DNA of 30,285 nucleotides from a virus: positions 1 through 30,285 of IMG/VR virus record IMGVR_UViG_3300023179_000363; one strand, 5' to 3'. The notes beneath the pieces were generated by a model. The model saw nothing but the letters and a program-made list of their open reading frames with translations. It was not told where the DNA came from and searched no databases. Positions 1,460 through 30,285 of this stretch are shown one piece after another; position 1 is the first letter of the stretch; the number at the start of each line of letters is the position of its first letter. The translations under genes and the position numbers were made by a program.

Positions 1460-1663
1460 TCACCAGTTCCCTGCCTTCTCCGCTTCATTCGCCGCCCATG
1501 CACGAAGTTGACGCGCTGCCACAATCATTTCATTAGTCATCTCGGGAACAGTGTCCACCTTCTTGTGTAGACATAGGTCGTGTAACTCTTGGCACATCTT
1601 ATCCATCTTCAACAGGATTGGAGCGTAGTCGAACAGTTCGTCATGAGCGAGATTGGTTTGCAT
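1460..1663 (-). CDS. Hypothetical 67-aa helical protein
   Basis: The short product is predicted to be mostly helical (MDKMCQELHDLCLHKK; VAARQLRAWAANEAEK). It overlaps the 3' end of the VRR-NUC gene by 23 bases, the tight packing expected in an early phage operon. There is no recognisable domain. Function unknown. Confidence 0.5.
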   Translation of the reverse strand: MQTNLAHDELFDYAPILLKMDKMCQELHDLCLHKKVDTVPEMTNEMIVAARQLRAWAANEAEKAGNW

Positions 1664-1952
1664 TTACGATTTCCTTTATTAGCGATTCAAGTTCATCTAG
1701 GTTTGTTTCCCGCACAACCAAAGCGCGCCCCAAAGAGTCGATTATGCGCTGAAGTTCCCGCTGTTGTAGTGCTGTCGGATTGTTGTCGCCAGCCTTACAT
1801 TCAATCCCCACGAAACGCCCCCTGACACAGGCAATGACATCAGGGATGCCGCTCCGTCCATACCCACCAGTAGCGGGATAGAAGAAGTAGACATTGTATT
1901 TCTTGAGAATTGCGGAAACTTTAGCCTTGACTCGGCTTTCTGGAGTCGCCAT
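1641..1952 (-). CDS. VRR-NUC domain nuclease
   Basis: The 103-aa protein is a minimal VRR-NUC (PD-(D/E)xK superfamily) nuclease. It shows GIPDVI with D38, then GIECKAG with E51 and K53, then a downstream glutamine pair (Q64-Q65) in ALQQREL. Phage stand-alone VRR-NUC proteins act as structure-specific nucleases, for example on Holliday junctions, and are usually found among replication and recombination genes. It is the first gene after a terminator and has its own candidate promoter (1983-2011) and a palindromic element upstream, so it likely heads a separate leftward transcript down to the tRNA. Domain assignment is firm; substrate is inferred. Confidence 0.88.
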   Translation of the reverse strand: MATPESRVKAKVSAILKKYNVYFFYPATGGYGRSGIPDVIACVRGRFVGIECKAGDNNPTALQQRELQRIIDSLGRALVVRETNLDELESLIKEIVNANQSRS

Positions 1953-2020: not shown

Positions 2021-2052
2021 GGCACAAATCGACATCAATGTCGAAATGTTCC
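2021..2052. promoter_or_regulatory. 32-bp palindromic element, copy A
   Basis: Core TCGACATCAATGTCGA (2029-2044) is a perfect 7-bp inverted repeat around CA. Outer arms are GGCACA on the left and TGTTCC on the right. It lies between a leftward terminator and a leftward promoter, about 10 bp upstream of the -35 box. This placement would suit an activator or a loop-forming repressor. One of seven copies in the window. Confidence 0.8.
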
Positions 2053-2057
2053 AGACG

Positions 2058-2081
2058 TAAAAAAACCGCCCGAAGGCGGTT
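2058..2081 (-). terminator. Rho-independent terminator (leftward)
   Basis: On the - strand a 7-bp stem AACCGCC/GGCGGTT with a TTCG tetraloop is followed directly by a T-run (the A-run at 2058-2065 on the + strand). It ends the leftward transcript that contains 3418-2233 and separates it from the VRR-NUC operon. Confidence 0.88.
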
Positions 2082-2092
2082 AGAAATGCAAA

Positions 2093-2110
2093 GGCCACCC
2101 GAAGGTGGCC
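2093..2110. other. Second tetraloop hairpin next to the terminator
   Basis: GGCCACC, CGAA, GGTGGCC form a perfect 7-bp hairpin 12 bases to the right of the terminator hairpin. It has no T-run. On the leftward RNA it would come just before the terminator and could stabilise the 3' end against exonucleases. Confidence 0.6.
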
Positions 2111-2121
2111 CGTGTGGGGGT

Positions 2122-2200
2122 TAGCAGATTCCGCGCCCCCGCGCGGTGTTGGAGAGTCGGGCTTGTATCCTAGCCCCCCAGTTCATAGCAACATCTGCTA
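2122..2200 (-). ncRNA. Candidate structured RNA in a 3' untranslated region
   Basis: On the leftward transcript this stretch can fold into a closed multi-branch shape. The outer stem is 8 bp (2122-2129 with 2193-2200, TAGCAGAT/ATCTGCTA). Inside it are a 5-bp hairpin (2159-2163 with 2172-2176) and a 6-bp GC hairpin with a four-base loop (CCGCGC 2131-2136 with GCGCGG 2141-2146). Two further hairpins and the terminator follow, and no open frame of note covers it. It is not a tRNA: the arms and loops do not fit and there is no CCA end. It could be a small RNA or simply a stable 3' end. The fold is by eye. Confidence 0.4.
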
Positions 2201-2232
2201 GGCGTCTATGTCGTGGGGAATGATTACAGTCA

Positions 2233-2421
2233 TCAGTAGAGCGCAGCTTCCGCACCTACCGATTTAATACTATCCACTTGCTTTTCCTTTTTCAAGCGGG
2301 GTTGGACTACCAACCTGAGGCCGCACTTTCCATTTAGATACTGTTCGGCCTCTTTGCGTATATAAAACTTACGCAGAGCGCCGTCATCGTCGTGGACTTC
2401 AAACCGTGGCTGTGTCTTCAC
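2233..2421 (-). CDS. Hypothetical 62-aa protein, GTG start
   Basis: I choose GTG 2421-2419 (VKTQPRFEVHDDD) because GGAG lies 9 bases upstream and the start overlaps the preceding gene by only 23 bases. A longer frame would run deep into that gene. The product is charged, with KFYIRKEAEQYLNGK in the middle, and ends 33 bases before the structured 3' region. It looks like a small soluble protein; the family is not recognised. Confidence 0.55.
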   Translation of the reverse strand: MKTQPRFEVHDDDGALRKFYIRKEAEQYLNGKCGLRLVVQPRLKKEKQVDSIKSVGAEAALY

Positions 2422-3418
2422 TTGTTTCGTTCTCCACAAATTGCTTTCGATAGATAAAAAACAGATAGCTGTCATCGCTGCTTTGTACCTTAACGCCGAT
2501 GTTCGGTATTGCATGGTCGGTCTCCGCTAGTGTAAGCGTAGCAATCTTTTCTTTAACCCAATCCGGCGCATCCTCTAGGTTAGCAAAGTCTGTCATGTTC
2601 GCACACACGTTGTGTTTTGTGATGTTTGAGTATGCAAAGCGAATGACTGGAATCAAGCTAGTGCCGTCAGGTATCTTCTCACCTTCTTTTTGCAGGATAG
2701 TCTCAAACAATCGGATGCCGCCGTTACGCAATCTAATCGCAAACGCGGCGCTACCGTCACCCAACGCATTTGGAATCTCGTTCTTAATTTTACGGCGAGC
2801 TTTGAATACATTTGCAGTAGAGAATAGTTCTTCCGAAATTTGAAAATTCATCGACTTCGGAATGTCAGCAAAGGTTAGCTTTTCAAGGCCGACTACTTTG
2901 TTGTTTTCAAAAGTTAGGACTTCCGAAAACCAAATGGCAAGTTCTTGTTCCCGCATACGAACGCATCTTTGCATTTCTCGTTCTGCTTGGTCTGTCAACG
3001 TATCTATGCGGCGGTAAAGTTTATCAATTGTTTCGTTGAGAATCTTGTCTACGCTCGGCTTGCACATCAGCCTCTTGGCGTGGCGAACCGCTGCGTTCAA
3101 GTCCGTGGTTATTATCTTATTGCGATTGCCACGGCGCTTGTTGACATTGGGTGAGCCAATACCAAAGGCTGGGTCAGACTGGCCTTCGGAATTAGTTTTT
3201 CCGTTGTGGTTGGCGTATTCAATAGTACCGATGAAATCAACCCCATCGAATATATCGAACCCATTGGTCACAATCTCCCCGCCATATTCGATGGTGCTGC
3301 CAGCACTTTCAAATGTGAAGGTAGAGTTTTGCTTCATCAGTTTATTAACCGCAAGGTCAAGCATGGGGTGCATACGGTTAGTGTTACGTGCGAGTTTGAT
3401 ACGGTTGCTAGATGACAT
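2399..3418 (-). CDS. Hypothetical phage protein, 339 aa
   Basis: ATG 3418-3416 (MSSSNRIKL) is placed 8 bases after GGAG, and a GTG two codons earlier is less likely. The N-terminal third contains SAGSTIEYGGEIVTNG and DFIGTIEYANHN, predicted beta strands. The middle is a long charged helix region (KLYRRIDTLTDQAEREMQ), and the C-terminal part mixes strands and helices. I see no catalytic motif. It lies 32 bases after the 295-aa coiled-coil gene and is probably in the same transcript as the VWA/MoxR module, so a role together with those proteins is possible but not shown. Confidence 0.7.
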   Translation of the reverse strand: MSSSNRIKLARNTNRMHPMLDLAVNKLMKQNSTFTFESAGSTIEYGGEIVTNGFDIFDGVDFIGTIEYANHNGKTNSEGQSDPAFGIGSPNVNKRRGNRNKIITTDLNAAVRHAKRLMCKPSVDKILNETIDKLYRRIDTLTDQAEREMQRCVRMREQELAIWFSEVLTFENNKVVGLEKLTFADIPKSMNFQISEELFSTANVFKARRKIKNEIPNALGDGSAAFAIRLRNGGIRLFETILQKEGEKIPDGTSLIPVIRFAYSNITKHNVCANMTDFANLEDAPDWVKEKIATLTLAETDHAIPNIGVKVQSSDDSYLFFIYRKQFVENETSEDTATV

Positions 3419-3450
3419 TTTCACTTCTCCGTTGTTGGTAAATGTTTACT

Positions 3451-4338
3451 TCAGAATTGAAACTTCGAAAGAATCTCGTCCACCTTGGACTTAACTTCGG
3501 TACGCATATCGGCATCATGTCGCATATCCTGCGAGTCCAAGCCAAAGATTGCGTCGGAAAGTTCCCTACGTGCAGCTTCAAGTTTCGGGTCGCCGGTCAG
3601 GTTCATGTGCTTGAGTAGGTCACATAGTTCTTGCGCATTGCTCATAAGCGAATCCCGAAACACCGTCTTCGTTCCAGTATCCGAAACTTGGAGTCGGTCA
3701 CTCAGATGCGTAAGGCACTTATGTAACCGCTGCCAGCACTCCGACATAGCTTCGCTGATGCGAGAGTCAAACGCTTCTTGAAACTGCTTGACAAGTTCTT
3801 CGTTTGCCTTGGTGCCAATGTCTACGCGGAAATCACCCGAGACTGGTACTGGAGAAATAGCAAAGTCGAATGCAAACTTCCTCTTGACTTCCTCCGCGCT
3901 TGGGTACTCGTTGCGGTCAAACATCTCGCCAAGGTTCATCGCAGCAGCAGACACCATCTCGTCGTACCGACTGAGGAAATCATCTACCATGCCCTCATAT
4001 TCGGTGCGGTGCTTGTCTAGCTGCGCCATGTAATCAAAAAACTTGGACGATGGAAGCAATCGCAAGCCTTGGTCATTCCACGGTAGGGTTACTTGTACGT
4101 TCCAGTTACGGATACGCGCCGCACACTTGGTAATCTCATGTAACAACCGAGTGCCAGCCATCAGGTCTTTCTCATACTTACCCGCCCGAGCCTGCGTCTT
4201 TTTCGCAATATCAACTTCCTCGCTAACCTTGCGGTCTGTCTTGCTTGCGCCCCACGCCTTTACGGACAGTTCAATTAACATCGCGCTCGAAGCAATGCTA
4301 ATGTGTTCGCTTTGCGGTTCGAATACCTGTGTGTTCAT
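3451..4338 (-). CDS. Helical protein of the MoxR/VWA module (DUF3150-like?)
   Basis: The 295-aa product is largely helical and charged, with IELSVKAWGASKTDRKVS near residue 23 and several long amphipathic helices (KFFDYMAQLDKHRTEYE; FQEAFDSRISEAMSECWQ). Phage and plasmid MoxR/VWA loci often include a protein of this size and composition annotated DUF3150. The resemblance is by general pattern and not secure. Its start overlaps the ribbon-helix-helix gene by ATGA and has GGAG 7 bases upstream. Palindromic element B sits 14 bases upstream of its start codon, so its expression may be controlled separately from the genes to the right. Confidence 0.65.
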   Translation of the reverse strand: MNTQVFEPQSEHISIASSAMLIELSVKAWGASKTDRKVSEEVDIAKKTQARAGKYEKDLMAGTRLLHEITKCAARIRNWNVQVTLPWNDQGLRLLPSSKFFDYMAQLDKHRTEYEGMVDDFLSRYDEMVSAAAMNLGEMFDRNEYPSAEEVKRKFAFDFAISPVPVSGDFRVDIGTKANEELVKQFQEAFDSRISEAMSECWQRLHKCLTHLSDRLQVSDTGTKTVFRDSLMSNAQELCDLLKHMNLTGDPKLEAARRELSDAIFGLDSQDMRHDADMRTEVKSKVDEILSKFQF

Positions 4339-4550
4339 TTGTCATCTCCTTGGTACACATCGACATTGGTGTCGATTTGTTCTTGCTTCTTAGCCTTTTG
4401 GTATTCAAGGCAAATGTGTAGAACAACCTGCGCGTAAGACGGCGCAAACCCTAGCTGCTTCATCAACTCCCCACGAACCTCGTCCAGAACTGCAACTGCA
4501 TCTGGAGATACGCTCAGACCCACGCGGCCATCATGTCTGCCTTGTCTCAT
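4335..4550 (-). CDS. Small ribbon-helix-helix-like protein
   Basis: Start ATG 4550-4548 (MRQGRHDG) has GGAG 7 bases upstream; longer readings would overlap the VWA gene. In the 71-aa product a short strand (RVGLSVSP) is followed by helix DAVAVLDEVRGELMKQLG, a turn, and helix SYAQVVLHICLEYQKAK. This is the order of a ribbon-helix-helix (CopG/Arc-like) DNA-binding fold. It is a candidate for the protein that binds the dispersed palindromes, since copy B lies inside its own 3' end, encoding I-D-T-N-V-D. The fold call is from pattern only; a plain helical protein is the alternative. Confidence 0.55.
   Translation of the reverse strand: MRQGRHDGRVGLSVSPDAVAVLDEVRGELMKQLGFAPSYAQVVLHICLEYQKAKKQEQIDTNVDVYQGDDK
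4352..4383. promoter_or_regulatory. 32-bp palindromic element, copy B
   Basis: Core TCGACATTGGTGTCGA (4360-4375) with left flank GGTACACA and right flank TTTGTTCT. It overlaps the last codons of the ribbon-helix-helix-like gene and ends 14 bases upstream of the next start codon, just before that gene's GGAG. Confidence 0.8.
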
Positions 4551-4554
4551 TTCA

Positions 4555-5853
4555 TCACTCCTTGTCAACGTAAACGGAAACACCATAAGAGGGAACGAAT
4601 GATTCATTCCCCACCACACACCACAACACCGGCAACCCCAACTGCTCAAATGCGGAGCCGCCGTCCCCACCATAGAAGTAGCCGTCAGTAAGCATCACGA
4701 CTGCTACCACATCCTCAACCACATCCTTGTTTGCGCCATCTGCCATCCACACAGGAACACACACAGGGTCAGTACCCCCACCTCCCGCAGGTTTTGTAGA
4801 TGATGCGATTTCGTGCATATCTTCTTTGCCGTACTGTTCCACCGATGCAACTTGGGTATCCCAATACAGCAGGATGATTCCGTCGGGCTTTACTTCGTCT
4901 GCAATGTAAGTCAACTCACCGAGAAACCTACCCAACAGCGTATCACCAATAGAACCGCTTGTGTCGAGACCAACCAAAACTTTTCCAACTTTATGCGCGA
5001 TGGTAGTCGGTAGGAAAATGTCTACACCAACAAACCGTTTGTGGAACCGCTTGAAGGTTGCATCGTCGTGTCCTTTGCATACGGCCTTAACAAAGTCACG
5101 CAGCACATCTTCCCACTTGACCTTGGGTGCGAGAAGTTTCTTGATGTCACGCGATACATCACCGTTTAGCTTGCCAGCCAACTGCGCGCCCTGCCGCAAT
5201 GCGCCGTCAATCTTTTCTCGCAGCTCGTCCTCTTGCTCCTTGGTCAAGGCCTTGGCTTCATCCCAACCGTGTTCGTCAAACTGCTTTTTAAGCAATTCGT
5301 CAAAACTATTTGGTTTATTTGGACCATTCGGTGATGGGGTGCCCCATCCCCCGTCAGTTCCTTGCCCATCTTCAAGGCCATTGTCCTCATAGATTTTGTT
5401 GAACACTTGCTTGGCGTCCATGTCCCGATACTGCTCGTCATAACAACCGAGTAGCTCGCCGTTCTCATCAGTAGGGAACTCGACTTCGTTCCCATGCGGG
5501 TCCATATCAACGATTTGCAGATTGATAACAAAGTCACAAGCCATGTTCGCCACTTGCGGATGACGCTCGTACAGACTACGCCACACAATCGTGTGCCGAT
5601 ACGCCATGTGCATAAGCTCGTGGATAAGCACAAACAACAACTGCTTGTCATTGAGAATCTGGATAAACTCACGGCCCAGCTTGATGTTGATGCCGTCGGT
5701 GTACGCAGTCGGGTGGTCATCGACTACTTCAATGGTGCCGACCATGAGCAAACCGGAAAACAAAATCCAGCGGCGGCTGCTCAGTACCTTGTAGATGACG
5801 CGCTCGACGCGCTGCTCTTCGGTCAGTACCGAACTAAATTTTACTGAACCCAT
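4555..5853 (-). CDS. VWA-like metallopeptidase protein (DUF2201 type)
   Basis: The 432-aa protein joins two recognisable parts. Near the N-terminus VLIHELMHMAYRH holds a zincin motif HELMH (residues 78-82). The C-terminal half is a von Willebrand factor A fold with MIDAS elements GLDTSGSIGD (D297, S299, S301), GGTDP (T361) and LTDGYF (D390). Between them is a Gly/Asn/Pro-rich linker (about 163-185). This is the architecture of DUF2201-type putative metallopeptidases, which are encoded beside MoxR-type AAA+ ATPases. The ATPase is thought to remodel the VWA partner or its targets. Start ATG 5853 has GGAG 7 bases upstream and overlaps the preceding gene by 13 bases. Biochemical role in phages is unknown. 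Confidence 0.85.
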   Translation of the reverse strand: MGSVKFSSVLTEEQRVERVIYKVLSSRRWILFSGLLMVGTIEVVDDHPTAYTDGINIKLGREFIQILNDKQLLFVLIHELMHMAYRHTIVWRSLYERHPQVANMACDFVINLQIVDMDPHGNEVEFPTDENGELLGCYDEQYRDMDAKQVFNKIYEDNGLEDGQGTDGGWGTPSPNGPNKPNSFDELLKKQFDEHGWDEAKALTKEQEDELREKIDGALRQGAQLAGKLNGDVSRDIKKLLAPKVKWEDVLRDFVKAVCKGHDDATFKRFHKRFVGVDIFLPTTIAHKVGKVLVGLDTSGSIGDTLLGRFLGELTYIADEVKPDGIILLYWDTQVASVEQYGKEDMHEIASSTKPAGGGGTDPVCVPVWMADGANKDVVEDVVAVVMLTDGYFYGGDGGSAFEQLGLPVLWCVVGNESFVPSYGVSVYVDKE

Positions 5854-6131
5854 TTCGTCTCTCCTTGTTCTTGTAAGAGTTCTACTGCTTCGTCGTAGCT
5901 ATCTCTGATGGCGTCATAAGTAGACGCTAGTCCTCTAACAAATAGCTCTCTAGATATTCCTGCTTGTACTGCGTACATACCGGCAAGGGTTGTGCTTGCA
6001 ACTATTGCGACCACGTGTGCAGACACAGGGTTACCCGCGTCATCTAAGACTTCGGCCTCAGACTCAGATAGGTTTTTGATTGCTGTGTTGGCGGCGACAA
6101 CCATCGCCGCTATCATTTCTTTCTCATTCAT
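5841..6131 (-). CDS. Hypothetical 96-aa protein within the MoxR/VWA module
   Basis: ATG 6131 follows a GAGGGG ribosome binding site. The protein is acidic and helical, with an alanine/valine-rich stretch (SAHVVAIVASTTLAGMYAVQ, about residues 37-56) that is only moderately hydrophobic and a polar C-terminus (YDEAVELLQEQGETKWVQ). It sits between the ATPase and VWA genes and overlaps the latter by 13 bases, so it is co-expressed with them. No family is recognised. Confidence 0.6.
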   Translation of the reverse strand: MNEKEMIAAMVVAANTAIKNLSESEAEVLDDAGNPVSAHVVAIVASTTLAGMYAVQAGISRELFVRGLASTYDAIRDSYDEAVELLQEQGETKWVQ

Positions 6132-6149
6132 TTGGATGCCCCTCGGTGA

Positions 6150-7214
6150 TTAGAACAAGTAAGCGTTGTCACGCGCCCACGAAACAAACGCGCTGCTGCT
6201 GAACAGGACATCTTTCTTCTGCGGGTTCTTGCTTGCAGTCAAACAGAAGATGGACTGAAGTTCCTTCGGGCAACGCTTGAGATACTCAAACCACTTGCCG
6301 ATGTTCTTGTTGTCGATACGCATAACCGCACCGAACGCCATGATGCAAAGCGCAGACACGTGCTTCGGCACAGGTGCAGTCAATGGGTTAGCAATAACTT
6401 CAGCCCACGGTGTAAGTTCATCTGCCATCTGGATGTAGGCCACCATGTCACGCGCACCCGAATAGCCGATGGTTCCTTCCAGCGCAGTAATCAATGCGTT
6501 GGTCGTGTACTTGTCACGGTTACGCACAATCGTCGATGCACCCGCAACAGAACGCGGCGAACAGAACGCAGCTTGCGGACGCTTGGGGTTGTAGTTGTAG
6601 TGATTGTCAGCTTGCGCGGCGTCCTTGTAGCTTTGGAAGATTTGCGGAGTCTCACGCGCCCATGCCATAACTTCCGGCACGATGTCGTTGTGTACCGCCC
6701 AATCGTCAATCCATTCTTGCGTAGTGGGGTTCTTGATTGGCAATTCAGTCACGCGATTGCGGCTGTGTGCTTTCATCACATCGCCAACACCGTCGCCGCT
6801 AAAGTTACCAGCAGTGATGACGACAGACTCAGGATTTATGGTCAGCCCACCGATACGGCGCGGGTGCGTCAGCACAGGGTGCAGGGTGTTCTTCACGCCG
6901 TTCTCGCCTTTGGTAAACTCGTCAAGGAAAATGCAAAGCGGCTCGTCAAGATGGAATCCCCAGAACTCGTTGGGGTAGAACTGTGTGGTGCGCGTCTGAT
7001 GGTTGGGCATGGGGATGCCGATGTCGCCAATCTCTAGGTTAGGTACGTCCATGTAGATAGGCTTCATGTTAAGGCGCTCGGCGATAACCTTATGCATCGC
7101 GGTCTTACCGATACCCGGCGTGCCGACTAAGTGAAAGGTATTGCGCGGGTTGGCGCAGATAAGGTCAACCGCTTCTTTGAGAGTGACGGCGCCGTTGGTT
7201 GCGACTTGTGACAT
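6150..7214 (-). CDS. MoxR-type AAA+ ATPase
   Basis: Walker A GTPGIGKT (residues 31-38), Walker B CIFLDEF (94-100), sensor-1 asparagine in ITAGNFSG (N137) and candidate arginine fingers in HSRNRV (R152, R154) identify an AAA+ ATPase of the MoxR/CbbQ kind. Such ATPases work as hexamers and pair with VWA-domain proteins to remodel or activate targets. The VWA partner gene lies just downstream here. The length (354 aa) is usual, with an extra C-terminal helical part from about residue 255. Start ATG 7214 follows AGGAG by 8 bases. Palindromic element C lies 76 bases upstream. Confidence 0.93.
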   Translation of the reverse strand: MSQVATNGAVTLKEAVDLICANPRNTFHLVGTPGIGKTAMHKVIAERLNMKPIYMDVPNLEIGDIGIPMPNHQTRTTQFYPNEFWGFHLDEPLCIFLDEFTKGENGVKNTLHPVLTHPRRIGGLTINPESVVITAGNFSGDGVGDVMKAHSRNRVTELPIKNPTTQEWIDDWAVHNDIVPEVMAWARETPQIFQSYKDAAQADNHYNYNPKRPQAAFCSPRSVAGASTIVRNRDKYTTNALITALEGTIGYSGARDMVAYIQMADELTPWAEVIANPLTAPVPKHVSALCIMAFGAVMRIDNKNIGKWFEYLKRCPKELQSIFCLTASKNPQKKDVLFSSSAFVSWARDNAYLF

Positions 7215-7253
7215 TGCGAGTTCTCCTGAATAGATAGTAGATAAGACGTTGGA

Positions 7254-8558
7254 TTAATTGCTAACTTCGATACTGCTAACTTCATTGCTGCCACACATCG
7301 ACATTGCTGTCGATTTGTTCTGTACCTTCTTATATTCGGTGAAGGCGTTTACAAAGATAAAGTTTTGGTTGCGCGAGTTCTTAGCCTCGTTCTCGGCGGG
7401 CTTGAATATCCTGTCGGCGTAGCAAACCTTTATCGTTTCTTCCAATACCTCATACATACTGTCATTGCGACAACTAGCAAGCTCGGGTGCTACACCGCGT
7501 AAATCAGGCCAAGCATACGCAACACCACGCGGTCCACTAACGATGATAATGATGTGCGCCTTCAGCCACTCAGTCGGGTCGTTGCCTTGCATCATCTGCA
7601 ATAGCTTGTTCGCGTTCATGCCAAGCTGCGCTGAATCATTCTCAAGAATAGCTGGCAGTCCGTTGAACGGTTGCTTGGTCAAGTAACCCAGCGTCGCCGT
7701 GTTTGCCCTATGGATTTGCGACATCCTGACTGAGTGCGCTCGATGACAGATTGCCATGATGAAATGCTCAATCAAATAATTTTCCGTAATCGGTCTGCTC
7801 CAGAAAGGGTGTTCGGAACCCTCAAACAACTTACGCAATTCGGGCACGATGTTTGGCAGTTCTGAAGTTGGCGTGTCTGGTGGTATCCCCAAAACCTCAA
7901 GGCCAACGCGCCGCGTATCGCCGCTGTCGTATTGCCGCATTGCATTAAGTGTTCGGCAGTAGTCTATGAACGGCGCAATGGTTGGTGTAACTTCCTTGCA
8001 TACCTTATGCCATTCCTTCTTATCCATGTGCCAGTTGCTGTAATGCTCACCTTCCACGGTAATAATGTGTGTGCATCCGTGGATGCTGTTGAACACCGAC
8101 GATAGGGTGTTGAGGTTGATAACCAGCGGGTCTGTCGAGCCGATGAGGTATTTATCGGTTACAGGGTATTGTGCAAACTCTGTCGGCGACCGCGCGTGGG
8201 CGTTAGCCTCGACGAATATCATCTTGCCTCTGTCGATATACACCGTGCCATAGTCCGACGGCAGAATCTTGTCTATGAACGCAGCAGTACTTGGTGTCAC
8301 CCAACCGTTGTGTTTGAGAAGAATGGTGTCGGTCTGCTTGAGAAACGTAACACACGGCGAACCGTACAGGACGCACTCGATGTTCTCGTCTTTGTCCATG
8401 CGCAGCTCCAAGTGCTTGTATCTACGCGCACCTAGGGGCCGAATCTCAGGGTTGCTACCACGGATAGGTGTGGTGCTTTGGTACCGTTTGTATGCCTCGT
8501 TGTATGTGCGCAGTTTTGGTATGAACGCTCCAGATAGCGGGCCGTTGCCATATGCCAT
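7254..8558 (-). CDS. Large phage protein of unknown function, 434 aa
   Basis: I choose ATG 8558 (MAYGNGPLSGAF) because it begins one base after the stop of the upstream small gene; in-frame codons further upstream would overlap it. The N-terminus, including IPKLRTYNEAYKRYQST and PIRGSNPEIRPLGARR, looks like a family I have seen annotated only as hypothetical in phages. The middle has ILPSDYGTVYIDRGKMIFVE and repeated strands; no catalytic motif is clear. The 3' end carries palindromic element C. It may belong functionally with the ATPase gene that follows 39 bases later. Confidence 0.75.
   Translation of the reverse strand: MAYGNGPLSGAFIPKLRTYNEAYKRYQSTTPIRGSNPEIRPLGARRYKHLELRMDKDENIECVLYGSPCVTFLKQTDTILLKHNGWVTPSTAAFIDKILPSDYGTVYIDRGKMIFVEANAHARSPTEFAQYPVTDKYLIGSTDPLVINLNTLSSVFNSIHGCTHIITVEGEHYSNWHMDKKEWHKVCKEVTPTIAPFIDYCRTLNAMRQYDSGDTRRVGLEVLGIPPDTPTSELPNIVPELRKLFEGSEHPFWSRPITENYLIEHFIMAICHRAHSVRMSQIHRANTATLGYLTKQPFNGLPAILENDSAQLGMNANKLLQMMQGNDPTEWLKAHIIIIVSGPRGVAYAWPDLRGVAPELASCRNDSMYEVLEETIKVCYADRIFKPAENEAKNSRNQNFIFVNAFTEYKKVQNKSTAMSMCGSNEVSSIEVSN
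7290..7321. promoter_or_regulatory. 32-bp palindromic element, copy C
   Basis: Core TCGACATTGCTGTCGA (7298-7313) with right flank TTTGTTCT. It is inside the last codons of the 434-aa gene, read there as K-S-T-A-M-S-M, a different frame from copies B and E. It lies upstream of the MoxR-type gene. A 10-base direct repeat (GAAGTTAGCA on the - strand) follows within 40 bases. Confidence 0.78.
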
Positions 8559-8559
8559 C

Positions 8560-8733
8560 TCACACCCCCACTCGATAGCAGACATACGCATCAACACCCA
8601 TGCTGCTAGACGCGTGACAGTCCAAGGCTTTTAGTTGCCAGTCAACACCGATGTTGATGAGTGTCAGCACCACCAGAACAGCAAGCACCGCACCGACCAT
8701 CAACCCCGTGTAGAAGTTATCTTCGTCAATCAT
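8560..8733 (-). CDS. 57-aa membrane protein
   Basis: Start ATG 8733-8731 (MIDEDNFYTG) is set by GGGGAG 6 bases upstream. Residues 10-28 (GLMVGAVLAVLVVLTLINI) form one membrane helix, followed by a polar tail with two cysteines (C42 and C54). Two bases separate the start from the preceding stop and one base separates the stop from the next start. It is one of two adjacent small membrane proteins; both could act at the inner membrane early in infection. No family is recognised. Confidence 0.6.
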   Translation of the reverse strand: MIDEDNFYTGLMVGAVLAVLVVLTLINIGVDWQLKALDCHASSSMGVDAYVCYRVGV

Positions 8734-8734
8734 C

Positions 8735-8869
8735 TCAGTCTCCCCATGCGCCAAACGCTCTGGCGATTTGTGCTACCACCACCACGATGGAAGCAACCAC
8801 AACTGCGTACATCAGCCGACGCTCGGCCTTCGTCAATTCTTCTTCTTGCTTAGGGTCGTACAGTTTCAC
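8735..8869 (-). CDS. 44-aa membrane protein, GTG start
   Basis: A GTG start (8869-8867) lies 8 bases after AAGGAG. The product (MKLYDPKQEEELTKAERR at the start) has a charged N-terminus and one hydrophobic segment (about 19-35, MYAVVVASIVVVVAQIA), then ARAFGAWGD. It overlaps the gene upstream by 20 bases and ends just before the next start. Its good ribosome binding site and membrane-protein composition support it. Confidence 0.6.
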   Translation of the reverse strand: MKLYDPKQEEELTKAERRLMYAVVVASIVVVVAQIARAFGAWGD

Positions 8870-9023
8870 GTCTCTTCTCCTTGGTTGTCAGCACATACTT
8901 GATGTAAGTCTGGTTGTTCTCAGCTAGTAACCGCTTGCGTTTGTTCTCGTCGGCGATTGCAGCTTTGCGTTGGTGATGGTTCCTGATGTAGCTGTAGTCG
9001 CGTGTTGTTCCCTCAGTCGCCAT
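8850..9023 (-). CDS. Small basic protein, 57 aa
   Basis: ATG 9023-9021 follows GGGAG by 7 bases and overlaps the previous gene by 11 bases. The product is rich in Lys/Arg (RNHHQRKAAIADENKRKR; TTKEKRRETVRP) and likely helical, so nucleic-acid binding is possible. A longer in-frame reading exists upstream but would lie wholly within the preceding gene. Function unknown. Confidence 0.6.
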   Translation of the reverse strand: MATEGTTRDYSYIRNHHQRKAAIADENKRKRLLAENNQTYIKYVLTTKEKRRETVRP

Positions 9024-9363
9024 CTTTCTGCTCCCGCTTCGCAGCCTTAGCCACGCGCATCTTCTGCATACGCTCGTAGTCGCGTACCCTGCGCTCGTAT
9101 TCGGTTTTGGGGATAGCCATGCGAACGGATACGAACATGGTCTCACCGTCATCTCCTGCTTTAAGCACAGTCCAGTCTTGCTTGGTGTACTTCCAATCAA
9201 TCTCGCCCACGTTTTGTGCGGCGGTCATAAGCGCGTAGCGGTGCGCCCTTCTTGCCATTGCTTGTGTGTATGCGTGGTGCGGCACGTCGGTGGCGTGGGA
9301 TTGGTTATGTTGGAACAGTTCGACGTCGGTGTCGATTTGTTCCCAGTTGGTTTGGCTGGTCAT
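9013..9363 (-). CDS. Hypothetical 116-aa protein
   Basis: ATG 9363 follows GGGAG by 7 bases. The protein starts MTSQTNWEQIDTDVELF, then has a His-rich stretch, and ends in a very basic helix (RMQKMRVAKAAKREQKDGD). The codons for residues 7-17 contain palindromic element E. The EQIDTxV stretch recurs near the end of the ribbon-helix-helix-like protein only because both genes contain the same DNA element in the same frame. Function unknown. Confidence 0.62.
   Translation of the reverse strand: MTSQTNWEQIDTDVELFQHNQSHATDVPHHAYTQAMARRAHRYALMTAAQNVGEIDWKYTKQDWTVLKAGDDGETMFVSVRMAIPKTEYERRVRDYERMQKMRVAKAAKREQKDGD
9312..9343. promoter_or_regulatory. 32-bp palindromic element, copy E
   Basis: Core TCGACGTCGGTGTCGA (9320-9335) with full outer arms GGAACA (9312-9317) and TGTTCC (9338-9343). 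It sits 20 bases inside the coding region of the 116-aa gene, where a bound protein could block elongation. Confidence 0.85.
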
Positions 9364-9365
9364 TC

Positions 9366-9614
9366 TCAGTCTCCCTTGGTCTCGGTGGTGTTGAGGGCGT
9401 GTTCGATAGCGCGGATTAGGATTGGTACGTTGCGCTCACGCGGGTGCATCAGATGTTGTTGCAGTTGAACCGCAAGATTGCGGAACATATTGATGTGTTG
9501 CTTGCGTGTGTCGAGTAAATGCAGGACTCGGGATAGTTTCTCGTTGGCCTCCTTGGTCTTCGTGGTTAGCTCGCGCAGTTGCAGGATGTGGTTGGTGATG
9601 TCAACGGTGGTCAT
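9366..9614 (-). CDS. 82-aa coiled-coil protein
   Basis: ATG 9614-9612 has GGAG 6 bases upstream; a longer reading would overlap the neighbouring gene. The sequence shows heptad-like helices (ITNHILQLRELTTKTKEAN; LSRVLHLLDTRKQHINMF) over most of its length. The gene is the second in the leftward early transcript. A dimeric or oligomeric accessory protein is likely; no family is recognised. Confidence 0.58.
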   Translation of the reverse strand: MTTVDITNHILQLRELTTKTKEANEKLSRVLHLLDTRKQHINMFRNLAVQLQQHLMHPRERNVPILIRAIEHALNTTETKGD

Positions 9615-9627
9615 TGTTGTCTCCTGA

Positions 9628-9765
9628 TTACAGTTGCCGGTCAGCTTTGGGGTTGATGTAAACCAGTCGCCCGAACAGGAAGTGGCCGTTGTGGATTTGG
9701 TTCTGCACCCTGACTGCTTGGGTGTAGTACATGGGGTAAATGAGGCGGAAGATGAATCGGAACAT
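9628..9765 (-). CDS. 45-aa basic protein, first gene of the early transcript
   Basis: ATG 9765-9763 has GGAG 7 bases upstream. The product starts MFRFIFRLIYPMYYTQ, then QNQIHNGHFLFGRLVYINPK. It is aromatic and basic and could associate with membranes through its first 15 residues. The start codon and ribosome binding site lie inside palindromic element F, so binding of a protein to this DNA, or folding of the RNA, would directly affect expression. It is the first gene after the strong leftward promoter. Confidence 0.55.
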   Translation of the reverse strand: MFRFIFRLIYPMYYTQAVRVQNQIHNGHFLFGRLVYINPKADRQL

Positions 9766-9790
9766 TTCGACACTCCTGTCGTTTTGTGCC
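9759..9790. promoter_or_regulatory. 32-bp palindromic element, copy F
   Basis: Core CGACACTCCTGTCG (9768-9781) with outer arms GGAACA (9759-9764) and TGTGCC (9785-9790). It covers the GGAG and ATG of the 45-aa gene and lies about 55-85 bases downstream of the predicted transcription start. Confidence 0.82.
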
Positions 9791-9850
9791 ACATGGGTGG
9801 CGGGTTGATGAAGGTAGAACACAGGACGCTCTCCAACGTGTCCTTCGGAC

Positions 9851-9879
9851 ATTGTATCATATTCCTACGCGTTTGTCAA
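9851..9879 (-). promoter_or_regulatory. Strong leftward early promoter
   Basis: On the - strand TTGACA (9879-9874), a 17-base spacer and TACAAT (9856-9851) make a near-consensus sigma70 promoter. Transcription would start near 9844 and run through the run of small early genes. It is placed at the edge of the repeat-rich region. Confidence 0.85.
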
Positions 9880-9976
9880 ATAGTTGTGACGTCCTAAAAG
9901 TTTAATTGTTCCAAATGTTCCATGGGATGTGTGTAGCTATGGAACAATTCGAAATCCTACAATAAATATGGTTTGT

Positions 9977-9996
9977 AATGTTCCAGATGGAACATT
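9977..9996. repeat. Palindrome AATGTTCC-AGAT-GGAACATT
   Basis: Perfect 8-bp arms around a 4-base centre (9977-9984 and 9989-9996). The hexamers face the opposite way from those in the 32-bp elements. Confidence 0.8.
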
Positions 9997-10097
9997 AGGG
10001 TACGTGGGATGGAACAATAGGGTGTCAGGGGTGCGGTGCGCGTAAGTGGTTCATTTTATTATTATTTATTAAAAAATATAGATAGAGAGAGATGTAT

Positions 10098-10232
10098 TGT
10101 TCCAATGTTCCACGTTTTTTCGAAAATGTACCCTCGTGTGGCAAAAATTTTTTTCCCTGCAAAATACCTTCGACAGATAAATTTTCTCCAGAATGTGCTC
10201 ATACTTCCCAAAAAACGTGGAACATTGGAACA
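10098..10232. repeat. Perfect 23-bp inverted repeat with 89-bp spacer
   Basis: The left arm 10098-10120 (two TGTTCC, then CACG and a T-run) is the exact reverse complement of the right arm 10210-10232. The spacer contains another half-core TTCGACA near 10168. It could form a cruciform or an RNA hairpin, or bring four binding sites into symmetric positions. The arms are not flanked by a target duplication and hold no transposase, so this is not an insertion sequence. Confidence 0.85.
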
Positions 10233-10329
10233 TTCCTTTATAATCAACGACTTAACTTGGAACAATGCTTGGAACATTTGGAACAAATGGCCTGTTTATG
10301 GAACAATTCGAAATCCTACAGAATCCAAT

Positions 10330-10361
10330 GGAACAATTCGACACCAATGTCGTTTTGTTCC
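10330..10361. promoter_or_regulatory. 32-bp palindromic element, copy G
   Basis: Core TCGACACCAATGTCGT (10338-10353) with outer arms GGAACA (10330-10335) and TGTTCC (10356-10361). It closes the iteron-like array on the right. Its left half (GGAACAATTCGA) equals the beginning of the 24-bp direct repeat, which ties the two repeat types together. Confidence 0.85.
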
Positions 10362-10447
10362 AACACCGAATTTGAGCGCACAGTACGCGCGTAGGCTGCG
10401 GCGTCTTTTTCACCAGTTCCCTCCGGTCACTCCCTGCGCGAGGGCAT

Positions 10448-10472
10448 AAAAAAACCCCCGCCGTAGCGGGGG
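10448..10472 (-). terminator. Rho-independent terminator (leftward)
   Basis: On the - strand a 7-bp GC stem CCCCCGC/GCGGGGG with TACG loop is followed by seven T. It ends the single-gene transcript of the 207-aa protein and insulates the repeat region from it. Confidence 0.92.
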
Positions 10473-10488
10473 CCGTGATGCGGGTGAA

Positions 10489-11112
10489 TCAGGCTTTCGG
10501 CAGCATTGCTTTGATAGCCTCAAGTACCTTCCGGTTGTTGGCGTTCCACTGCAACGCGACTACAGCCTCGCGCACCTCTTTGCGCAGTGCGATGAATGAT
10601 TCCTGCGCCTCTTTGGTTTCGGCCTTAACCTGCGACGCGATGGCCTTGTGAACCATCTGCGCCTCTTTGAGCGCCTCCACTGTGCCAGCCTCCACCAAGG
10701 CCTTTGCTTTCTGCGCCAGTACTGCGCGAGGTTCCGCTGCAAGTGCCTCTACCTTCTTTGCTTCATCCTCGCGCCCCTTGGCTACCTTCTCGGCCTTACC
10801 CTTGGCCTTAGGCTTGGCCAGTCCGCAGCGCGACGCCAGTAGCAGCGCAAACCGTTCCCAGCCCTTCTGCGGGTCATCCAGAGGCGAGGCCTTAATCCAC
10901 GATTCGCGGTACGCGTTCCATTGTTCCAGAGTCGGGTCAATACCTAGACGCTTAGCTGCAGCGTCGACGACAGTGAATATGGCAGTTTCGCCCTTTGCGA
11001 ACGCCTGCGAGTCTAGCTTCGCACCGTCCATGATATCGGCAAAAGGATTGACAACGCCTGCGGCGTTAAGGATGGATTCGGGCTGACCCGATGACTTGGT
11101 GATTGTGCTCAT
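10489..11112 (-). CDS. Early phage protein with Ala/Lys/Glu-rich helical tail, 207 aa
   Basis: ATG 11112 follows GGAGGG by 6 bases. Residues 1-100 look globular (ILNAAGVVNPFADIMDGAK; QWNAYRESWIKASPLDDPQK). From about residue 100 there is a long Lys/Ala/Glu-rich helix (KPKAKGKAEKVAKGREDEAK; LVEAGTVEALKEAQMVHKA), likely a coiled coil. It is a single-gene unit with its own terminator, upstream of the iteron-like region, with palindromic element H about 100 bases before its start. A replication-initiation, nucleoid-like or regulatory protein would fit that position, but I see no known domain. Confidence 0.72.
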   Translation of the reverse strand: MSTITKSSGQPESILNAAGVVNPFADIMDGAKLDSQAFAKGETAIFTVVDAAAKRLGIDPTLEQWNAYRESWIKASPLDDPQKGWERFALLLASRCGLAKPKAKGKAEKVAKGREDEAKKVEALAAEPRAVLAQKAKALVEAGTVEALKEAQMVHKAIASQVKAETKEAQESFIALRKEVREAVVALQWNANNRKVLEAIKAMLPKA

Positions 11113-11211
11113 GATGTACCCTCCGATGGGCGTTAAGTGGCGACGTCCGCCACAACGTCATCCTACAGTATCCAACACCTGGTAGCGTGAATCTTTTGTT
11201 ACAAGTCGCGC

Positions 11212-11243
11212 GGTACACTTCGACGCGCGTGTCGATTTGTTCC
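11212..11243. promoter_or_regulatory. 32-bp palindromic element, copy H
   Basis: Core TCGACGCGCGTGTCGA (11220-11235), left flank GGTACACT, right flank TTTGTTCC. It lies in the divergent region about 100 bases upstream of the 207-aa gene and 200 bases before the rightward promoter. Confidence 0.82.
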
Positions 11244-11475: not shown

Positions 11476-11811
11476 ATGACTACAAGCTACGAAAAATACG
11501 GTAAGAAGTACTACGAAGGGAACCGCGAAAAATGCGTGGAGCGCAACCGTGCGTACCAAATAAAGCAGAAGCAAAAATGGTGGGAATATAAAAAAACTTT
11601 GAAGTGTGAACGTTGTGGAGAAGACCACCCCGCATGCATTGATTTTCACCACATTAATCGCAATGACCCAGATAAGAAGCACGTAAGCAAGCTCATACAA
11701 AACCGGCTGTACGCTCAAGCGTATAGGGAAGTGAAGAAGTGCATTGTGGTGTGTGCTAACTGCCACCGAAAGATTCACTGGGATGAACGGCAAGAAGAGC
11801 TGAACAAATGA
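11476..11811 (+). CDS. HNH endonuclease
   Basis: The 111-aa protein has a compact HNH fold with zinc knuckles: CERC (residues 44-47), FHHINRND (57-64) with the catalytic histidine pair, and CANCHRKIH (93-101). HNH proteins next to the terminase genes are frequent in cos-type phages, where they assist the terminase in genome cleavage. A free-standing homing-type enzyme is the alternative. It begins 8 bases after a perfect -10 box with no Shine-Dalgarno. The stop overlaps the next start by ATGA. It leads the whole packaging/head operon. Confidence 0.88.
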   Translation: MTTSYEKYGKKYYEGNREKCVERNRAYQIKQKQKWWEYKKTLKCERCGEDHPACIDFHHINRNDPDKKHVSKLIQNRLYAQAYREVKKCIVVCANCHRKIHWDERQEELNK

Positions 11812-12437
11812 TTGAGAAAGCCGCCGACGTTGCACACCACAAAGTCGAACCTGACTTCGACCACCCTATTCCTGCAAACCCTACGGACAAAGAGCCGCGC
11901 GACCCGCAAGAGAAGGTCAAGGTTAGTGCTACAACGGCGCGCCTTTTGGGTGAATTGGGGATGCCCTTAGATATGACTATGGCGGAAGCCGCCGAGGCGC
12001 AAGACCTATTTGCCGGTCACCCAGAGAAAGAACCCGGTGATGTATATAAGCAAGGCGTGGCTGTGCGCCTGTCGGCTCTATTAAATGTTTACGACAAACA
12101 AATCGTAGATGATGCGGTACAGCTTCGGCATTACATTACAAACCGGCTAATTGAAATCTCCAGTTGTGGCACCGCTAAGGATGAGCTACGGGCTTTGGAG
12201 CTGCTGGGTAAGATTAGTGACGTTGGCCTGTTTACTGAGAAGCAGGAAATCACAGTTACGCACCGCACTAGCGAAGAGCTGGAACATGCAATTAAGGAGC
12301 GGGTTAAGCGGCTTATTCACAGCAATATTATTGACGTTACACCTGAAGATACTGAATTAGATAATTTAAAAACCCAAGTTCACGAAACCGAATCCGAACC
12401 CATAGAAGATGCAACCGACGATTCAGACGCTAACTGA
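11808..12437 (+). CDS. terS: Terminase small subunit
   Basis: The 209-aa protein precedes the large subunit and shows the DNA-packaging small-subunit-like core HYITNRLIEISSCGTAKDE and ALELLGKISDVGLFTEKQ (about residues 109-145), with a disordered N-terminus and a strongly acidic C-terminus (ETESEPIEDATDDSDAN). The small subunit recognises the phage packaging site and hands the DNA to the large subunit. Helices YKQGVAVRLSALLNVYDKQI may form the oligomeric ring. Position and composition support the assignment better than any single motif does. Confidence 0.8.
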   Translation: MIEKAADVAHHKVEPDFDHPIPANPTDKEPRDPQEKVKVSATTARLLGELGMPLDMTMAEAAEAQDLFAGHPEKEPGDVYKQGVAVRLSALLNVYDKQIVDDAVQLRHYITNRLIEISSCGTAKDELRALELLGKISDVGLFTEKQEITVTHRTSEELEHAIKERVKRLIHSNIIDVTPEDTELDNLKTQVHETESEPIEDATDDSDAN

Positions 12438-25022: not shown

Positions 25023-27008
25023 ATGGGATTTTCAAGCACTGGGTCTACTGGCACTGGAGCTAATAGTAACCAAACTAGCGGCCAAACCAGCAATCAAACC
25101 GGTGTAGGGTCTAATCCTACAACTACTGGGCAAACCCAGCCTACCGGTTCGCAATACGGCGGTAAAGGCGGCGGATACGCACAGCCTAATCCGCAAGATA
25201 CTCCGCGTAATCCGTATGCGGTCAATACAGATACATCATCTCAACAAACGTACATGCCATTTGGGCAAACCGCCTATGGGTACAACATGCAGCGTTTGGC
25301 ACAGCGCATGGACCCTTCCGCAGCGTTGCCGGGTGATTACAACCGCCCTAGTTTCTATCAACCGCAAGCCCCGCAGTTTTTCCAACCTCAAATTGACGTA
25401 GAGGGACTAAAGTCCGCTTTTGGTGGAAAGGGTGGCGGTACGGCCGATACTAAAGGGTCTACAGATACAACAACCCCGGCTACCACTCCCGCAGCTACAG
25501 ATACGCAACAGCCGCAAAACCAATATGATACTAGGTTCAGCGCACTAGAAGAAAAACTAAACCAACTTCTAGCCGCGCGCTCTGGCGCTGGTACAACAGC
25601 CCCAGCTACCTCTGATACGACTACTCCTACCAGCACTTCGGCCGCTACTTCTGGTACAACAGCCCCAGCTACCTCTAGTACGACTGCCCCTACCGGCACT
25701 TCGGCCGCTACTTCTGGTACAACGGCCCCAGCTACCTCTGATACGACTGCTCCTACCGGCACTTCGGCCGCTACAGATTCTGAAATTAAAGATACTGGAG
25801 AAGCTACGTATTCTCAAACGGCGGCTGCTAGTAAATTTGGGGTTGGGACTAATGCAGCGGAGGCGTCTACGCCGCTTACAGATACACAATTATCTGACGC
25901 AAAAGAAGCAAAAGCCGCCGAAGCAACGGCTACAGCAGCAAAAATTGACCCCGTTACGGGCAAGCCAAAATATCAATATGGCACGTATACTGCTCCTACT
26001 GATGAGCAACTATCTGGGTTGGGTAGCAAAGCAAACATTCAATCTTACTATAATCAACAGGCCGCTAGGGCTAAAACTGACTTGGCAGCGGCACAAAAAG
26101 CGCTAAAAGCTGCGCAAAAAAGCGGCTCGATGGATGACCAAGTAGCCGCCCAAAAACAAGTTAGCGCCATCTTACAACGCCAAGCTCAAATTGCCGCGGA
26201 TTCAAAGAAGACATTGGCCCAAGTAGGCAAGACCGGCTATCAAACAGCCTCGCAGATTCAAGCTAGCAAGGATGCAGCAGCTAAGGCCGCAGCAGATAAA
26301 CAGGCAGCAGCTAAAGCACAGGCGGACGCAGCGGCTAAGGCTAAGGCAGATGCAGCAGCTAAGGCCACAGCAGATAAACAAGCCGCGGCTAAAGCCAAGG
26401 CAGATGCAGCAGCTAAGGCCGCCGCAGACAAACAAGCCAAAGCGCAAGCGGATGCACAAGCCAAAGCACAAGCAGAGGCGCAGAAGAAAGCCGCAGCGGA
26501 TACGGCCGCTAAGGCTAAGGCAGATGCAGCAGCTAAGGCCACAGCAGATAAACAAGCCAAAGCACAAGCGGATGCACAAGCCAAAGCACAAGCAGAAGCG
26601 CAGAAGAAAGCCGCAGCGGAAAAAGCAGCCCAAGAAAAAGCCGCAGCGCAAAAAGCAGCCCAAGAAAAGGCAGCCGCCGATAAAGCCGCAGCTCAGCAAG
26701 CCGCGCAGGAAAAAGCTGAAGCAGAGCGTGCCGCTAAAGAAAGAGCGGCTCAAGAAAAAGCGCAAGCAGAGGCGCAGAAGAAAGCCGCAGGGGAAAAAGC
26801 AGCCCAAGAAAAAGCCGCTGCCGCACAGAAGGCCGCAGAAGAAAAAGCCGCTGCTAAGCAAGCCGCTGCAGAAAAAGCCGCTGCAGAAAAAGCAGCAAAA
26901 GCGCAAGCAGCTGCAGCTAAGAAAACGACCAAAAAAGCAAAGGGCGGTACAGTCATTGCCCACAAAGGAATGACGCCCAACCTTAAAAAACAGTTAGGAA
27001 TTAAATGA
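25023..27008 (+). CDS. Low-complexity protein with TolA-like Ala/Lys/Gln rod, 661 aa
   Basis: The protein has three parts. Residues 1-190 are Gly/Thr/Gln/Pro-rich and disordered, with GGKGGG patches. Residues about 190-252 contain three 21-residue repeats (GTTAPATSDTTAPTGTSAAT type). Residues about 415-635 are an almost pure Ala/Lys/Gln/Glu/Asp helix (units such as AAKAKADAAAKAAADKQ), like domain II of TolA. The end is KKAKGGTVIAHKGMTPNLKK, carrying the GGTV patch. It could be an extended periplasm- or tail-spanning rod, or an ejected protein; TolA mimicry is an inference from composition. It sits directly before connector genes. Confidence 0.72.
   Translation: MGFSSTGSTGTGANSNQTSGQTSNQTGVGSNPTTTGQTQPTGSQYGGKGGGYAQPNPQDTPRNPYAVNTDTSSQQTYMPFGQTAYGYNMQRLAQRMDPSAALPGDYNRPSFYQPQAPQFFQPQIDVEGLKSAFGGKGGGTADTKGSTDTTTPATTPAATDTQQPQNQYDTRFSALEEKLNQLLAARSGAGTTAPATSDTTTPTSTSAATSGTTAPATSSTTAPTGTSAATSGTTAPATSDTTAPTGTSAATDSEIKDTGEATYSQTAAASKFGVGTNAAEASTPLTDTQLSDAKEAKAAEATATAAKIDPVTGKPKYQYGTYTAPTDEQLSGLGSKANIQSYYNQQAARAKTDLAAAQKALKAAQKSGSMDDQVAAQKQVSAILQRQAQIAADSKKTLAQVGKTGYQTASQIQASKDAAAKAAADKQAAAKAQADAAAKAKADAAAKATADKQAAAKAKADAAAKAAADKQAKAQADAQAKAQAEAQKKAAADTAAKAKADAAAKATADKQAKAQADAQAKAQAEAQKKAAAEKAAQEKAAAQKAAQEKAAADKAAAQQAAQEKAEAERAAKERAAQEKAQAEAQKKAAGEKAAQEKAAAAQKAAEEKAAAKQAAAEKAAAEKAAKAQAAAAKKTTKKAKGGTVIAHKGMTPNLKKQLGIK
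25590..25778 (+). repeat. Three tandem 63-bp repeats
   Basis: Units begin at 25590, 25653 and 25716, and each encodes a 21-residue Thr/Ala/Ser/Pro-rich segment. Differences are few (mostly single substitutions) except for the last bases of copy three. The number of units could vary between strains by slippage. Confidence 0.88.
26265..26930 (+). repeat. Degenerate repeats encoding the Ala/Lys/Gln rod
   Basis: Blocks such as the sequence around 26335-26390 reappear near 26512-26565 with few changes, and many GCAGCTAAGGC-like units recur. The long open frames on the other strand here are a by-product of this composition. Confidence 0.75.
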
Positions 27009-29978: not shown

Positions 29979-30285
29979 ATGGCCCTTGTCATTGCCGACC
30001 GCGTAAAAGAAACAACCACCACTACTGGTACGGGTACAGTTACCCTTGCTGGTGCCGCCACTGGTTTTCAATCTTTTGCTGTGGTTGGCAACGGCAACCA
30101 GACTTACTACACTATTGCCGGTCAGGGAACTTCTGAATGGGAAGTGGGCATTGGCACATACACTTCTTCTGGCACTACGCTTTCGCGTACTACAGTTCTT
30201 GCGTCATCTAACGCTGGGTCTTTAGTTAATTTTAGTGCGGGCACTAAGGACGTATTTGTTACATATCCTGCGGGTAAAGCAACTT
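29979..30285 (+). CDS. Tail-fibre-type protein, N-terminal part
   Basis: The frame opens at ATG 29979 (MALVIADRVKETTTTTGTG) and runs off the window after 102 codons. The visible part has TYYTIAGQGTSEWEVGIGTY and GTLS-type beta repeats, ending DVFVTYPAGKAT. This N-terminal module is widely found at the head of phage tail fibres and related surface proteins. The receptor-binding part lies outside the window. Confidence 0.8.
   Translation, partial: MALVIADRVKETTTTTGTGTVTLAGAATGFQSFAVVGNGNQTYYTIAGQGTSEWEVGIGTYTSSGTTLSRTTVLASSNAGSLVNFSAGTKDVFVTYPAGKAT

Follow-up and report, generated by a model that had tools for sequence, protein, structure and literature searches.

Virus record IMGVR_UViG_3300023179_000363 of the IMG/VR database (30,285 bp, hereafter the window; this is the entire record, and the genome is not necessarily complete) carries seven copies of a 32-bp palindrome, GGAACA-NN-TCGACA-NNNN-TGTCGA-NN-TGTTCC, dispersed between positions 2021 and 11243 (Table 1). 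The question raised by this locus is which protein reads these sites and what is achieved by doing so. Comparison with related phages shows that the operator network is real, occurs widely and changes unusually fast, and it points to a new candidate regulator. Judging from the genomes, the palindromes are, on balance, probably the dispersed operators of a phage-encoded, autoregulated early-gene regulator, for which a 207-aa protein encoded among them (p207) is the best candidate.

The palindromic element and its re-coding among relatives

When the window was scanned with a symmetric 32-bp matrix, the seven palindromes scored 39.8-46.0 bits, the runner-up place (8634) reaching 6.8 bits, and no copy was found 3' of 11243 up to the end of the record at 30,285. 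With up to 2 mismatches allowed, the core TCGACA-N4-TGTCGA gave 8 matches versus 0.77 expected in shuffles (shuffle maximum 3). The eighth core match, at 8642 with 2 mismatches, was rejected as a further copy, since it is at chance level (6.8 bits). An earlier note on this DNA had listed the same seven copies, restricted to the early region and with none past 11243, and on these points its account was borne out: late genes are devoid of the element, and the places are retained in close relatives.

A scan of IMG/VR for ACANNTCGACNNNNNTGTCGNNNTGT added nine records in which the window's motif likewise forms arrays. The closest of them, G001 (IMGVR 3300032225_000823, 56,796 bp), whose terminase is 93% identical to that of the window, has all seven sites at equivalent places, each retaining 28-32 of its 32 bases; in copy 5 all 32 bases are the same, although the ungapped flanks are only 65% identical. 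An eighth, nearly perfect palindrome (41545-41576 of the flipped G001) stands between the MoxR and 96-aa genes, where the window has unrelated bases instead, and gives a natural example of one site gained or lost. All eight palindromes of G001 lie inside 9.3 kb, with none in the remaining 47 kb. In the more distant records G002-G008 and G033, whose early enzymes are 43-55% identical, the core with outer arms AACA..TGTT is present at the corresponding gene borders.

The arrays are not limited to this motif. The DUF3150 protein of the early block, used as query, led to 80 loci, many of which were found in an unbiased search for spaced dyads to possess a dispersed palindrome of their own. Whole-genome automatic motif runs caught low-complexity coding repeats in several genomes, and the final table was seeded from the early block. 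It comprises 37 genomes with arrays, usually of 6-11 copies (fewer in short fragments), and nearly all the sites are inside a block of about 10 kb extending from p207 to an Hjc-like nuclease gene. An early module of MoxR ATPase, VWA protein and DUF3150 protein is common to about 35 array relatives. Equal-sized control segments (59) held at most 4 copies of any such dyad, compared with up to 10 in the early blocks. In the window and in relatives of 56.8-65 kb, the arrays stay within the early block, outside which no more than one stray match occurs; G020 is the exception, its apparent outside sites being due to a block drawn too short, as no p207 could be recognised there.

Among these lineages the outer arms are mostly constant (GACA or GAACA), while the inner 5-6 bp vary by lineage and include TCGACA, GTGTCA, GTTACA, CTGAC, ATAAG and CCTAGA. 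At least 10 inner-arm classes occur in about 28 genomes, consensus examples of the lineage palindromes being GGACAaAGTGTCAnnnTGACACTtTGTCC, GGACAaAGTTAcannntgTAACTtTGTCC, GACAatCTGACnnnnnGTCAGatTGTC, gGACAAAATaAGgnnncCTtATTTTGTCc, cgGACAaTCCTAGAnnnTCTAGGAtTGTCcg, tTCACAaATCGAAannntTTCGATtTGTGAa and ACTTaGCGACATnATGTCGCtAAGT. In a tree built from three enzymes of the block, TCGACA appears in two distant branches and GTTACA flanks two other classes, so that specificity has either been switched repeatedly or been exchanged. A distant annotated Synechococcus/Planktothrix phage, MinM2 (OQ594354.1; L290, L291), with a related terminase and MoxR/VWA/DUF3150 module, has 38 matches to CGGTTCAGnCTGAACCG genome-wide, many of them about 29 bp 5' of start codons, late genes included.

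The places of the sites are common to genomes whose elements have lost sequence identity. In relatives, a site is mostly found 31-56 bp upstream of the MoxR start (91 bp in the window), 33-43 bp upstream of the DUF3150 start (29 bp in the window) and 78-130 bp upstream of the Hjc-like gene, where nearly all relatives having that gene carry a palindrome; in about half of the genomes another stands at 0.40-0.44 of the VWA gene, and sites also occur near p207. These recurring distances to gene starts indicate that, within a genome, all sites change in step without leaving their places. Moreover, the sites are often just 5' of ribosome-binding sites, AGGAG being downstream of 41 of 239 sites and upstream of 6. 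Copy 2 is directly 5' of the ribosome-binding site of the DUF3150 gene, and the equivalent place is occupied in about 20 relatives.

The 207-aa protein as candidate regulator

When p207 distance was compared with motif distance, with correction for genome distance, a partial r of 0.585 was obtained, rising to 0.64 for the third helix of the protein (p 0.0005). Among 31 protein families present in at least 13 genomes, p207 ranked first (partial r 0.61, the next being 0.34). In the same distance test, the motif was tracked barely or not at all by the block enzymes, by the 447-aa and 341-aa proteins, which evolve fast, and by a 71-aa protein, and the gene adjoining the terminase (window 11808-12437) was intermediate, with 0.30. 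The earlier note had named p207, which does track the motif, only as the second thing to assay. The link is to be read as a correlation between protein and motif, as distinct from binding.

The predicted AlphaFold structure of p207 is all-helical (predicted local distance difference test score, pLDDT, 88.8), with helices at 42-56, 62-75 and 81-96 followed by a long coiled coil. A basic KPK linker joins the three-helix domain to the coiled coil and includes P101, the one residue that is invariant throughout the family. Where the third helix begins, the residues differ with the motif: QK.WE is common to TCGACA and TCGAAA genomes though their p207s are only 20-29% identical to that of the window, [IV]K is found in GTGTCA and GTTACA genomes (in the former as [IV]K..WKR), and CTGAC/GTGAC genomes mostly have D replacing K. 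The protein is encoded, often in two copies, in every array genome covering its locus except G020, and constitutes a new all-helical family. Upstream of p207 copies, the CTGAC-type genomes G040, G047, G048, G052 and G055 share a recurring conserved stretch like GCTACCGCGTTGAAATGACCGTTCC.

Several observations weigh against p207 as the regulator, or against repression as its action. No recognisable p207 was found in G020, the most distant array genome, and the family gave no convincing sequence match in Pfam, PHROGs or the PDB, nor any fold match among PDB or viral structures, so that the label "helix-turn-helix-like" refers to the helix order of the model. Label parsimony on gene trees was not discriminating: p207 required 10 steps (minimum 10), and the 447-aa and 71-aa families were also minimal. 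As regards transcription, no promoter was located at a constant distance from the 239 sites, and some sites precede likely -35 boxes, a position that would suit an activator.

Proposed mechanism and alternative explanations

The p207 gene is the first of the leftward early block, with sites just upstream and just downstream of it; the upstream one, copy 7, is presumed to be its autoregulatory site. In the mechanism proposed, the protein would bind as a dimer through its C-terminal coiled coil and would recognise the lineage-specific inner arm through helix 3 of its N-terminal domain. By occupying the 5' ends of the genes of the block (MoxR/VWA/DUF3150 module and its neighbours), accumulating p207 would damp transcription of the block: within the operon it would stop elongation, and near promoters it would stop initiation. 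We infer the sign of the regulation (repression versus activation), and repression by roadblock is favoured. The surroundings of the sites are varied: a likely promoter is 5' of the site at some p207 copies and 3' of it at others, while at the Hjc-like gene the window and many relatives have intrinsic terminators 5' of the site, which is followed, in most relatives, by a conserved TATACT-type promoter, the window's copy of which scores under the threshold of the consensus scan.

A different role for p207 would be that of a replication initiator, with the palindromes as autoregulatory operators in the style of iteron plasmids. The origin, also bound by p207, would be a dense cluster of GAACAWT repeats, which adjoins p207 in AT-rich noncoding DNA in most relatives (7-17 per 500 bp versus about 1 expected), the repeats often having opposite orientations on its two sides; in the window, moreover, the palindrome outer arm GGAACA is the cluster repeat itself. 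However, the cluster is constant whereas the inner arms and p207 vary, which makes it a separate element, and the palindromes of G043, G020 and G051 lack GAACA. In addition, plasmid Rep operators are single, and not 6-11 across 10 kb. The explanation is therefore considered unlikely, although the cluster is possibly a replication origin.

The sites might also be bound by a host transcription factor, the motif differing because the phages infect different hosts. The hosts are probably diverse and the sites are located at gene starts; nevertheless, of all shared families a phage protein, p207, is by far the best tracked by motif divergence, the remaining shared genes lack such a correlation and the outer arms are mostly constant, so that a host factor appears quite unlikely.

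Still less credit is given to the 71-aa ribbon-helix-helix-like protein, which the earlier note had put forward as a candidate binder and whose beta-strand would read each 8-bp module of the palindrome. In many of the compared genomes its family is conserved directly 5' of DUF3150, next to a site, it has a ribbon-helix-helix-like pattern (3 of 6 members weakly matching CcdA), and four 8-bp modules would fit dimers of this kind; its AlphaFold monomer has two helices and no useful PDB fold match. However, the family went undetected in 7 of 28 array-bearing genomes, the K-N-S of the putative DNA-contact strand is identical across TCGACA, GTGTCA, GTTACA and TCGAAA genomes, and the partial r between its divergence and the motif, 0.20, fell to 0.00 after removal of near-duplicates. 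Having gone undetected in these genomes and failed to track the motif, it is probably not the binder and was rejected.

Centromere-like partition or DNA-organising sites, another proposal of the earlier note as regards partition, would account for multiple dispersed palindromes, some of them within genes, but are very improbable, since the sites are grouped at the starts of genes within a single transcribed block, a search of 14 relatives gave no ParB_N domain and no plasmid or prophage state is indicated. Least credible of all is an action at the RNA level, in which hairpins would serve as terminators or processing sites. Although a 6-bp stem with a 4-nt loop could form and a T run follows the palindrome 5' of the Hjc-like gene in about ten genomes, 322 of 427 departures at consensus positions are unpaired and paired double changes number only 20, T runs follow just 23 of 239 sites (T runs preceding them being commoner), true terminators sit beside the site, and there is no Rfam match. 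Since the departures mostly break pairing, selection acts on the DNA duplex, as the earlier note had maintained.

Concerning lifestyle, no integrase (PF00589) was found in the same 14 relatives, several of which are near full length, and a scan of 84,980 prokaryote (host) genomes gave no relative of the DUF3150 protein. A terminase scan returned three contigs of metagenome-assembled genomes (MAGs), none with p207 or the repeat cluster, one of which, of 9 kb, holds a DUF3150 fragment. As far as these records, several of them incomplete, can tell, there appears to be no sign of lysogeny or of ParB-type partition. CP070693.1 (L294; Dehalococcoidia MAG chromosome) contains at 256988-267923 a terminase fragment 73% identical to that of the window, with no p207, DUF3150 or repeat cluster nearby, which may be a prophage remnant or an assembly mix-up.

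For a p207-operated network, a tentative extension, to which we allow a small chance, is that p207 fits its 6-11 sites as a key fits its lock, and that obligately lytic phages use the pair to silence the early block of like phages co-infecting the cell, rivalry driving the repeated, concerted re-coding of every site at fixed places. If true, such phages would possess a specificity system resembling immunity. The network also provides a readable control circuit for an abundant and almost entirely uncultured lineage of water phages, with p207 as a new candidate DNA-binding family, and dozens of natural protein-site pairs, varying on both sides, offer a ready data set for a recognition code. Moreover, it poses two questions: how 6-11 sites per genome can change together and yet stay put, and why diversification like that of immunity groups should occur in phages that show no sign of lysogeny.

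Table 1. Palindromes, genes and other features of the early block of the window
Feature	Position	Strand	Remarks
Hjc-like nuclease	1641..1952	-	end of site-bearing block
Palindrome copy 1 (GGCACAAATCGACATCAATGTCGAAATGTTCC)	2021..2052		intergenic; 84 bp 5' of Hjc-like gene, just past double intrinsic terminator
Two tandem intrinsic-terminator-like hairpins	2064..2111	-	directly before palindrome copy 1
341-aa protein	2399..3424	-	no assigned function; block member, family search
DUF3150 protein	3451..4338	-	block member
71-aa ribbon-helix-helix-like protein	4335..4550	-	block member
Palindrome copy 2	4352..4383		in 3' end of 71-aa gene; centre 29 bp 5' of DUF3150 start
DUF2201 putative metallopeptidase/VWA-like protein	4555..5853	-	block member
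MoxR-like AAA ATPase	6150..7214	-	block member
447-aa protein	7254..8597	-	no assigned function; block member, family search
Palindrome copy 3	7290..7321		in 3' end of 447-codon open reading frame (ORF); 91 bp 5' of MoxR ATPase start
Palindrome copy 4	9312..9343		5' part of 116-codon ORF
Palindrome copy 5	9759..9790		5' part of 164-codon ORF
AT-rich noncoding stretch	9905..10361	.	16 GGAACA/TGTTCC repeats; repeat counts
Palindrome copy 6	10330..10361		intergenic; downstream of p207 gene, edge of GGAACA cluster
207-aa protein p207	10489..11112	-	best binder candidate; family search, predicted structure, motif tracking
Palindrome copy 7	11212..11243		intergenic; centre 115 bp 5' of p207 start

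The coding status of the small ORFs holding copies 4 and 5 is less certain. A small conserved protein with a DksA/TraR-like C4 zinc-finger pattern is encoded inside the early block of G021 (33503-33766) and about 30 relatives and was not found in the window. Outside the block, a 661-codon ORF of the window (25023-27008) contains 63-bp tandem repeats (25588-25776) and 24/30-bp repeats (26235-26935), and corresponds to a low-complexity repeat protein.

Comparison with known systems

The stoperators of Cluster A mycobacteriophages (L5, TipsytheTRex), to which the earlier note had likened the element, are many sites of one repressor in short intergenic spaces, with a motif that varies among relatives, tracking the repressor, and a presumed block of elongation (PMC9283540, PMC6550527). 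They are 13-bp, asymmetric, oriented with transcription and present in more than 20 copies per genome, genome-wide, and are bound by a monomer with helix-turn-helix and Stoperator domains in temperate phages (PMC9283540, PMC6550527). The arrays described here share with them the repetition of a single motif in short spaces between genes and a motif divergence that follows that of the candidate regulator. In contrast, the present sites are near-palindromes of 26-32 bp, 6-11 of them are gathered in one early block of about 10 kb, the 14 relatives have no integrase and p207 appears to belong to an unrelated family, with no convincing Pfam or PDB sequence match and no fold match. The arrays are therefore stoperator-like in layout and not members of the Cluster A stoperator family. 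Of the earlier proposal of a stoperator-like, early shut-off or partition system, the dispersed layout is supported, as stoperator-like or early shut-off, while partition finds no support.

Other systems resemble the arrays in part. Like the KorB operators of IncP plasmids, which are dispersed palindromes coordinating many genes, the sites are palindromic and scattered, but KorB is a ParB-family protein, and the ParB_N domain was not found in the 14 relatives. Unlike the operator systems of Arc/CopG/MetJ-type ribbon-helix-helix proteins, the 71-aa protein was not detected everywhere that the sites are, and its putative contact residues are constant across motifs. An iteron-type replicon has a cluster of short repeats in AT-rich DNA next to the gene of its initiator; here a GAACAWT cluster lies in AT-rich DNA beside p207, a hypothetical initiator.

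The conserved inverted repeats (CIRs) of the Streptomyces phage phiC31 are palindromic operators of one autoregulated phage repressor in intergenic early regions. In general layout, the present palindromes in early genes are like them, although phiC31 is a temperate phage and its repressor differs from p207; to our knowledge, lineage-wise re-coding of all sites has not been described for the CIRs. The C1 repressor of phage P1, a temperate plasmid-prophage, has many scattered operators, asymmetric and genome-wide; as in P1, one phage regulator is proposed here for many scattered sites, which are in this case palindromic and in one block. The phiC31 CIRs and the P1 operators may be closer analogues of these arrays than the Cluster A stoperators, or equal ones.

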